DNA from: Owenia fusiformis
Taxonomy: Eukaryota > Annelida > Polychaeta > Sabellida > Oweniidae
DNA length: 64,000 nt
Assembly (NCBI GenBank): GCA_903813345.2
Contig: CAIIXF020000005.1
Coordinates: 37,019,375 to 37,083,374, forward strand
Reading direction: 5' to 3'
Of this stretch, positions 20,201 through 23,200 are shown piece by piece. Position numbers and translations under genes: made by a program. The stretch's first letter is position 1. Each line of letters starts with the position of its first letter. The notes under the pieces are model-generated. The model did not search any database and had not been told where the DNA came from. It saw only the letters and a program-made list of their open reading frames with translations.

Positions 20201-23200
20201 AGCAAATTGGTTTATTGTTATGTCACCATCAGAAGTGGTAACATATTGTTATAGTCTTCAACTATTTTTTGGATGGTGTTTGGTGTTCAGCATCTGGTGT
20301 TTGGCATCTGGCAGTTGGCGTTCCGAGTTCAGCATTTTTAACAAATGGCAGGTGGTGACATTTTGCATGATAATGCCTTGTTCTTTGTTAAAATTGTTTC
20401 ATTTCATTTTTTATATAGATTATTTATGTGCATGTGTGGCAATATAGACACCAATAAAAGTGACATATGTTGGTGCCCTCAATTGCAACGATGTTGGCAC
20501 CAGCATCCTCTAAAACATGCTCTTTCATTTGGCATATGTATATTACCATCTCAGCAAGTCACTCAATTTCATCTCATGCATAGTGTACCTAAAGTGTATT
20601 CCCATGTAATTAAATGTAAATTAATATTGTAAATAATGGCATATTTGGTTGCAAGTATATTACTCAGGTCTCTATCAGTATCAAAGAAAATAGTATGATA
20701 TATTGAAATTAAAGAATAATTTAAAGGCGACAATGCTATAATCATATAATAATATATGAAGAATATACTATAGGTGTATATTAACATAGGCTACATTCGT
20801 TTTGCAGGTCAGGACCCCCATGAAATATGATACTCTTTTGTTTGTTACCTAATCATTAAATAATTGTCAATGTCTCTAGCTTGGTGACATAACTCCTCAC
20901 AGCTAAGCCATATTTAAGCAATCAAATGGCCATATAACCACAGGTGTGTAACCGGAAACATTCACTGGTGAGATGAAAGTTAATAACTAAATCTATATAC
21001 AGCAAGTTCAAAGGTCATGATTCATGAAAATCTGCATTAATGCACATGCACAAAAATATGACAGGTAATGCATTACCTAATCATTTTGAAAACAAGTCGT
21101 AAGAAAATGTTTTGTTTGGGGAAAATTGATATTGGTGTCAAGTGCAAATTTTCTTAATGGTTATTGACTGGCGAAACGAACGTAGCCATAATTGCACTTA
21201 TACAGCATCTTTATTACACAAATGAACCTGCTGGGTAAAGTCTTATCATATCCTGCTGCAATTTGTAAAGTGGAACTGTAGTCATCATCATCAAAATCAT
21301 GACTAATGGACATTGATATGATTATGATTATCCCACCTGATTAGTTGAGTTGTGATATAGACTAGCCATCTATTCATCCATCCATCCATCCATCCATCCA
21401 CCCATCCATCCATTCATTCATTCATTCATTTATCCATCCATTTAATTTAATTTCTGATAAATCAAATACAAGTTATTGGATTTGCTCTTATATATGCTGG
21501 TGCCTTATGGGCTTAGGGCCTCACCTTGAGAAGAATGGCATCATCTCACATCGGGTTTGGGTTAGTCTCTAGATTCTAGAGAGCCAATACTTCTGCCAAG
21601 TTATTTCATTCACAAAATGTTCAAAATGGCAAGTGATTTGGCAATTTCTTTTCTTTGGGATTTTCTTTTCCTGGGAGATCAAGCTTTTCTAGTTATGGCT
21701 CTTGTTATATAAATGTTAATAAAGCTAGGCTTTCATACTATCTAATTTTGCTCTCAGTACATAATTGCTTATGCTTTTGTTTTGTTTTTCAATATATTAA
21801 ATCTTTGTTTTTTTAATTAGATGAACATGCTTTGCTGCATTGTTTTTTTGTTCTTTCAAATGCTTCTTTTTTCATTTTTTCTGTTTATTTAATGTTTCCC
21901 TATTTAGCTGCATGCCAATTAAGCCTTCTACCCAACAATGGTCTGTTTGCAGGAATATATTGAAGGAGGCTTTAATCTAAACAACATCTCAGTGATGGAT
22001 AAGTCGGCACTGAGGCACATCAATGGTAATATAAGCGGCATGATAGTGCCTTGGAACTACGTTGGAATGTGTTTCTCCTCATTCTGTTGGCACACAGAGG
22101 ACCATTGGAGCTACAGTATCAATTACCTTCATTGGTATGTACCCGCCTTCCTCCCCCGCTCCACCCCTGGCCATATAAGGGGGACTGGGGGAGGAGTCAA
22201 CAATCTAGCCCCACCCACTCCACTAGTTTCTCTGTCAATTCACTACACCAGCCAGCTGTCACACTAAAACAATGAAAATTGGTGGTAGTGTTTTGACAGT
22301 TGACAATATTATATATACTGATATGTCTTTGTTTTATAGGAGTACATATACCACCCGTTCAATCTGAACAACATCGCCATAAGTGGTCGCTCTGCACTGC
22401 AACACATGAGTAACAATATAGATGGCATGATAGTGCCATGGAACTATGTGGGCATGTGTTTTTCGTCCTTTTGTTGGCATACAGAAGATCATTGGAGTAA
22501 CTCAATAAGCTATATGCACTGGTACGTATCCCAGTAGAGCGCTCATCTAATCAGTATTTTTCATTTTGTAGCCAGATGGAGTCCAGTTGGATGTCATAAG
22601 TGAACTGCTGCCTCCACCCAGCTTAGCAGACGTCACAAGTGCATTATGGGAAACAAAATGTCTGCTTCAAAAATGCTCACTGATGTATTGATGAATGTTT
22701 CAGGAATACATTAATGTAGGCTGGAACTTGAACAACATGGCTAACCTGGACACATCTGTTTTATCTCACATAAGTGCAGACATCTCCGGCATGAAAGTCC
22801 CGTGGTGCTACGTCGGGATGTGCTTTTCCAGCTTCTGTTGGCACAATGAAGATCACTGGTCTTACTCTATAAATTATCTCCATTGGTATGTACTTGTGAA
22901 CCTTATTGTGAATATCAGAGACAAGCACTTTCCTGTGTAAATGCCAATTTGTAGCCTATGGGCGATGGTATGTAGTGTTTGAATAACAGTTCATATTATT
23001 TTCTGTACATGTTTATATATAGTCTTTTCTGGTATCTCCAGAAAAAATTGTACATCAGCATGTAAAGAAATGAAAAATTAATGGTGGAAACAGATTTCAA
23101 TTTTCGAACTTAGAAAATTATAATGGATTTGCCTCTGATTTCAGTAATAAGCTTCACATTCATTGGTTTTGTCTTTTGTAGGACCCATAACCTTTTCTAT

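Follow-up and report, generated by a model that had tools for sequence, protein, structure and literature searches.

In muscle myosin heavy chain and Dscam, adjacent homologous exons are spliced in a mutually exclusive manner and provide alternative versions of one protein segment. In PKM, the choice between the homologous exons 9 and 10 alters enzyme kinetics, a form of physiological tuning, and more generally alternative splicing alters the recruitment or activity of chromatin enzymes. In this study, we analyzed a 64,000-nt stretch of genomic DNA (the window) that contains a gene for the histone demethylase KDM5, together with the rest of the genome assembly. We find that this gene carries a tandem cluster of three duplicated exons (cassettes 1 to 3) for the JmjC segment with the iron-binding HxE motif, and the cassettes are very probably spliced in singly.

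As in myosin heavy chain and Dscam, one homologous exon is needed per mRNA, as the reading frame of KDM5 predicts. Unlike those genes, KDM5 would swap the core with which a chromatin enzyme binds its metal, and a docking/selector RNA signal was not found in a low-power scan of the locus. PKM likewise has homologous alternative exons in an enzyme, but it is a metabolic enzyme with two such exons. The demethylase LSD1, an FAD enzyme, differs from KDM5 in that its variable element is a microexon and not a swap of an Fe/2-oxoglutarate (Fe/2OG) active-site exon. To our knowledge, tandem exon swapping in the active site of a histone demethylase has no precedent, a view already expressed in a first-pass annotation of the window. 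Splicing of the neuronal microexon of LSD1 does alter its demethylase activity (PMC11605454). No report of duplicated or mutually exclusive catalytic exons in KDM5, JmjC or UTX was found in excerpts of the open-licence literature, subscription papers being outside the scope of the search, and three papers about exons of the tandem or mutually exclusive kind (PMC9741552, PMC5740500 and PMC9013439) contain none of the terms KDM, JARID and demethylase in their main text. Human KDM5A–D and KDM6A/B/UTY belong to the same families as the two loci described here; their diversity arose by gene duplication, whereas here one locus was found for each family, with alternative exons.

The KDM5 cassettes

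Re-reading the window recovered three homologous exons of 182 nt at the positions given by the first-pass annotation (Table 1). As that annotation had also claimed, each begins in phase 0 after an AG, ends in phase 2 with TG before a GT donor and has an open frame, and translation and alignment to KDM5 chains placed an HxE motif in each of them. All three encode the same 61-residue JmjC segment, which aligned over its full length to human KDM5A and KDM5B chains from the PDB; the best E values against KDM5 crystal chains were 5e-30 for cassette 3, 4e-27 for cassette 1 and 1e-20 for cassette 2. When all eight cassette combinations were translated between the flanking constant exons, only the three single-cassette mRNAs proved open, each reading through exon 12, and inclusion of zero, two or three cassettes ran into a stop shortly past the aberrant junction. 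The specific failures that had been predicted were reproduced: cassette 1 joined to 2 reads W-STYTTRSI-stop, either of these joined to 3 reads W-NTLM-stop, and skipping of all cassettes reads GRA-stop. The earlier proposal that KDM5 needs exactly one cassette to keep its frame is therefore correct for all eight combinations at the level of sequence.

The divergence among cassettes within this one genome indicates purifying selection at the protein level on all copies, in agreement with their description as tandem, frame-locked catalytic exons. Cassette pairs 1–2, 1–3 and 2–3 are identical at 122, 119 and 111 of 180 nucleotides and at 44, 44 and 39 of 60 amino acids, with equal lengths and no indels. 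Neutral simulations that introduced the same number of random changes as observed (20,000 per pair) left at most 34, 31 and 30 identical residues, respectively, and only 9–11% of the simulated frames stayed open. The proportions of nonsynonymous and synonymous differences (pN/pS) were 0.188/0.936 (1–2), 0.210/0.916 (1–3) and 0.253/0.984 (2–3), with synonymous sites saturated. The second half of the exon, which bears the HxE motif, is more constrained, with 29, 29 and 26 of 32 residues identical in the same three pairs. In simulations of free drift from cassette 3 (5,000 for each rate), 0.5 substitutions/site preserved 20 of the 60 residues on average and 34 at most. On these measures, the three cassettes are old and constrained as protein.

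Residue numbers follow KDM5A and are anchored on H483, which we take to be its iron-binding His. Cassette 3 is the closest to human KDM5A and KDM5B (49/61 and 47/61 identical), and cassettes 1 and 2 match KDM5A at 45 and 37 of 61 residues. At five positions, cassettes 1 and 2 have a residue in common (443 F, 448 I, 455 A, 462 N and 467 I) where cassette 3, KDM5A and KDM5B agree on a different one. Cassettes 1 and 2 therefore probably parted after their lineage had separated from cassette 3, which itself is probably of the ancestral type. Private changes among the five sequences compared are confined to cassette 2 (positions 442, 459, 490, 493 and 495), with none in cassettes 1 and 3.

The change at 493, ten residues after the iron-binding His, replaces Asn with Ser in cassette 2 alone. 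In KDM4A, Asn198 is presumably also ten residues after its His, His188. This Asn bonds the C5 carboxylate of 2-oxoglutarate in KDM4A (PMC6010108), and a model of schistosome KDM6 counts Asn 891, which follows His 881 by ten residues, as one of those essential for inhibitor contact (PMC7077139). Cassette 2 still has both Fe ligands (His and Glu) as well as Ser at His+8. In cassette 1 the catalytic residues are preserved, and most of its differences lie in the exon's first half. Because the Asn equivalent to KDM4A Asn198 is lost, cassette 2 probably binds the co-substrate with altered affinity or has little activity. The first-pass annotation did not mention this change at the 2-oxoglutarate contact, which is added here.

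A KDM6 parallel and other tandem exons

The main finding beyond the first-pass annotation, which lacked the rest of the genome, is a parallel in KDM6/UTX. A genome survey of JmjC domains returned two overlapping, side-by-side matches on contig C4, where the HxE exon is present in two intact, diverged and frame-locked copies of 115 nt (A and B), running from phase 1 to phase 2 and surrounded by introns of 260, 183 and 614 nt. Copy A alone or copy B alone is in frame; inclusion of neither or both leads to early stops. The copies are identical at 30 of 37 residues (pS 1.17, pN 0.11), above the maximum of 23 reached in 20,000 neutral simulations, and all nine PDB matches of the spliced stretch with copy B were to KDM6B, KDM6A or UTY (E 7e-56 to 3e-54). 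Copy B has Ala at His+8, where KDM6B has Ser, and copy A has Leu instead of Phe at His+6. A Ser-to-Ala change described in schistosome KDM6 (PMC7077139) could not be mapped to a position in copy B and so was not used.

Nine JmjC loci were compared with themselves, KDM5 in the window and eight others whose names are in part tentative. Intact tandem catalytic exons were found in two of the nine, KDM5 and KDM6. In KDM2, the exon that follows the HxD exon has a tandem copy that has decayed, with three in-frame stops (L015 1083–1172; contig C12, minus strand, in an intron); this relic shows the look of an unselected duplicate in this genome and serves as a natural negative control. No tandem copy was found in KDM4, KDM7 or the JARID2-like, JMJD6-like, KDM3-like and JMJD4-like genes within the 1.6–2.5 kb compared at each, and copies lying farther away would be overlooked; the KDM4 contig ends ~600 nt upstream of the HxE exon, and the HxD exon of the KDM3-like gene is outside the compared stretch. 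Six further JmjC places, one of them above the family cut-off, were outside the nine-locus comparison. In the gene on contig C3 that we take to be JARID2-like (L017), the HxE region reads CWSTDPH, without the usual HxE.

With a limit of E = 1, a survey of SET domains listed 44 matches, and three places that seemed to lie side by side were examined. One (L021; C4:29270800–29274800) is an array of very similar fragments that recur every ~650 bp, their matched stretches interrupted by in-frame stops, and looks recent. Another (L022; C4:6139064–6139841) has two SET-end exons, ~700 bp apart and 61% alike across 54 residues, which could be a further tandem exon pair or the result of a gene duplication; the third was without self-similarity. 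No overlapping neighbors were present among the five TET matches or the three matches of one 2OG-oxygenase family. What stands out is that KDM5 and KDM6 have retained copies that are both intact and diverged.

Proposed cassette choice and competing explanations

We propose that the spliceosome would pick one KDM5 cassette per transcript, under the control of cell type, stage or condition, and that mRNAs with the wrong number of cassettes would be removed by nonsense-mediated decay. The KDM5 gene would then give three enzymes that differ only within this part of the Fe/2OG core, with cassette 3 supplying the ancestral-type core, and KDM6 would separately yield alternative catalytic cores through its two-cassette version. 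Pyrimidine-poor acceptors and deviant donors are common in alternative exons. The last 20 nt of the cassette acceptors contain 10, 12 and 10 pyrimidines, compared with 14, 13 and 15 at three downstream constant acceptors, and the cassette donors (GTATGT or GTACGT) deviate at +4, in contrast to the constant donors (GTGAGT, GTAAGT and GTAAGA). These features hint, weakly, at regulated exons. A mixture of U2 and U12 splice-site classes was not found among the cassettes, all of whose sites are GT/AG, and every KDM5 donor examined is unlike what we take to be the U12 donor consensus. Because the splice sites look major-class, exclusion by U2/U12 incompatibility appears unlikely.

Comparison of the cassette-flanking introns revealed no homology except one 20-nt antisense match (E 0.036), and the window had no Rfam match at gathering thresholds. 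A predicted C-run/G-run hairpin at 22120–22230, which begins just inside the cassette 1 donor, has a minimum free energy of -35.2 kcal/mol and did not reach z < -2.5 in a 90-nt scan. Another predicted hairpin, a strong one at 23000–23089 in the intron 3′ of cassette 3 (-26.0; z -5.9 against 60 shuffles; no Rfam match), is possibly a small palindromic element. Counts of FOX, QKI, PTB and MBNL motifs lacked a chance control and carry no weight here. A regulatory element shared by KDM5 and KDM6 introns was considered and rejected: the shared DNA is a dispersed repeat, located at 20190–20400 in the window and with a relative in a KDM6 intron, for which a first look gave a rough count of 2,791 candidate places and all 40 of those scored matched.

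Several observations weigh against the use of one cassette at a time. The "exactly one" rule has no weight as separate evidence of selection for exclusivity; frame-locking arises passively because the length of the duplicated exon is not a multiple of three. At 0.25 substitutions/site, the simulated maximum was 47/60 residues and 22% of copies remained open, so a cassette lost only recently would escape the identity test. At 205 and 182 nt, the inner introns appear longer than simple steric exclusion would allow. Competing-RNA pairing, scored over 500 nt of each outer intron plus the inner introns in a low-power scan of one species, fell within the shuffled range for the best single pairing as well as for sums, with a best pair-sum of -49.7 (shuffled mean -48.9, s.d. 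3.6) and a triple-sum of -71.3 (shuffled -68.1, s.d. 4.6; 25 dinucleotide shuffles). Finally, tandem exon duplication is not rare in this genome, which makes the two demethylase cases less surprising.

Early stops always follow when two or three cassettes are included, which would suit a scheme in which only cassette 3 yields working KDM5 and cassettes 1 and 2 are poison exons that set the KDM5 level through nonsense-mediated decay. We consider this very unlikely, since both cassettes are conserved as protein while their synonymous sites are saturated, each alone is open, and poison exons do not need a conserved reading frame. Cassettes 1 and/or 2 might instead be decaying relics of old exon duplications that are no longer spliced. 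Tandem duplication and decay do occur in this genome (KDM2 and the SET array with in-frame stops), cassette 2 departs from the other four compared sequences at its five private positions, and a recent loss would slip past the identity test; even so, open frames, splice sites, the lack of indels and an identity that exceeds the neutral maximum lead us to give this idea just as little credence. Nothing that we found favors an assembly artefact, through collapsed haplotypes or misjoined copies, and such an error is scarcely credible when the copies differ at 58–69 of 180 nt, sit at a single locus on a 42-Mb contig and are the only three places matched by a genome search with cassette 1 DNA.

A more plausible alternative, although still a doubtful one, concerns activity: the alternative cassettes, cassette 2 most likely, may give a weak or dead KDM5 that acts as a scaffold or competitor isoform and not as a tuned enzyme. 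The Asn-to-Ser change at the KDM4A Asn198 equivalent (PMC6010108) points in this direction, whereas the retained Fe ligands and Ser at His+8, together with a second half that is 29/32 identical to cassette 1, argue for a working cassette 2, and cassette 1 retains all of these residues.

If the cassettes are indeed chosen one at a time, a bolder reading is that splicing takes the place of gene duplication in tuning how this animal's chromatin responds to oxygen or 2-oxoglutarate. We think this rather unlikely. It is put forward because the two loci, out of nine, in which intact alternative catalytic exons were found are KDM5 and KDM6, families whose vertebrate paralogues vary in their affinity for oxygen. 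Km values for oxygen are given as 90 for KDM5A, 40 for KDM5B, 35 for KDM5C and 25 for KDM5D, and as 180 for KDM6A and 20 for KDM6B (PMC7832865). In each gene, one alternative copy alters the same active-site stretch (KDM5 cassette 2 at His+10 and KDM6 copy B at His+8). However, KDM4 paralogues also vary about threefold in oxygen Km, from 60 to 197 (PMC7832865), yet no tandem exon was found in KDM4 here, and we rate the tuning of chromatin by splicing lower for this reason. If true, a switch of both clusters would reset the erasure of H3K4me3 and of H3K27me3 in concert, perhaps from larva to adult or from normoxic to hypoxic tissue.

The parallel between H3K4 and H3K27 demethylases suggests selection for variants of the Fe/2OG pocket. 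If a JmjC histone demethylase can indeed be given different catalytic cores by splicing, this would add a control point not known before, and natural variants in an otherwise identical enzyme would allow a direct test of which residues determine its affinity for oxygen and 2-oxoglutarate. It would also mean that catalytic diversity can be missed by gene-level annotation and by comparisons of the "longest isoform".

The KDM5 gene and its surroundings

The identity of KDM5 follows from the order of its JmjN, ARID, PHD, JmjC, C5HC2 and C-terminal PHD domains on the plus strand, from ~13916 to 33881 (Pfam and the list of open reading frames, ORFs; Table 1). This order was read from exon stretches on one strand, with the PLU-1 domain outside the test. 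When 160 residues encoded by the exons 3′ of the cassettes were searched against the genome, no second KDM5 gene was found; three of the five matches were the KDM5 of the window, one was a KDM4 gene on contig C238, and one, on contig C3, was presumably the JARID2-like gene. Self-comparison of the KDM5 region (13000–34500) yielded short or weak matches and no further exon that looked convincingly duplicated. KDM5 thus appears here as a putative H3K4me3 demethylase with one gene copy found.

Table 1. Features of the KDM5 gene (window positions) and of the KDM6 cluster (positions on contig C4)
Feature	Position	Strand	Details
JmjN-coding stretch, KDM5	13916..14062	+	Pfam JmjN 8.8e-20
ARID-coding stretch, KDM5	16977..17231	+	Pfam ARID 4.9e-18
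PHD1-coding stretch, KDM5	18772..18933	+	Pfam PHD 7.7e-13
Upstream constant exon (exon 10 of the first-pass annotation), KDM5	19473..19628	+	156 nt, phase 0-0; donor GAG/GTGAGT (exon/intron); translation
Cassette 1, KDM5	21953..22134	+	182 nt, ends TG; Pfam JmjC 3.7e-8
Intron, cassettes 1/2	22135..22339	+	205 nt
Cassette 2, KDM5	22340..22521	+	182 nt, most diverged; Pfam JmjC 1.1e-5
Intron, cassettes 2/3	22522..22703	+	182 nt
Cassette 3, KDM5	22704..22885	+	182 nt; Pfam JmjC 2.4e-8
Downstream constant exon (exon 12), KDM5	23894..24056	+	contains GEPKTWYG, its Lys presumably the 2-oxoglutarate Lys
Constant JmjC exon, KDM5	24191..24310	+	Pfam JmjC 80-114; presumably carries the third Fe ligand region
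C5HC2 zinc-finger stretch, KDM5	25550..25720	+	Pfam zf-C5HC2 1.8e-7
C-terminal PHD finger to stop codon, KDM5	33384..33881	+	Pfam PHD 8.2e-9; stop 33881 in ORF list
KDM6 upstream exon	ends C4:15462585	-	260-nt intron to copy A
KDM6 copy A	C4:15462324-15462210	-	115 nt
KDM6 copy B	C4:15462026-15461912	-	115 nt
KDM6 downstream exon	C4:15461297-15461153	-	614-nt intron from copy B

The assembly comprises 498 Mb in 525 contigs. A homeobox with KLTGP after it, a Lox5 signature, and Hox-type homeoboxes at C1:17.97–18.47 Mb indicate that the animal is a lophotrochozoan; a COX1 search gave no match. An annelid survey, in the passages considered, reports kdm5 in Capitella only among three species (PMC12153100); if the genome analyzed here is that of Owenia, its KDM5 was overlooked there. 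Elsewhere in the window, an open frame of 425 aa at 60172–61446 encodes a rhodopsin-class G protein-coupled receptor (Pfam 7tm_1, 9e-21), and a minisatellite at 44217–47154, with ~122 copies of 24-bp units, creates spurious ORFs of up to 710 aa on both strands. KDM5 is flanked by 152-bp tandem units at 3331–3634 and 38838–39141, which by eye look like mutual reverse complements, and the arrays near them have units of 339 and 346 bp.
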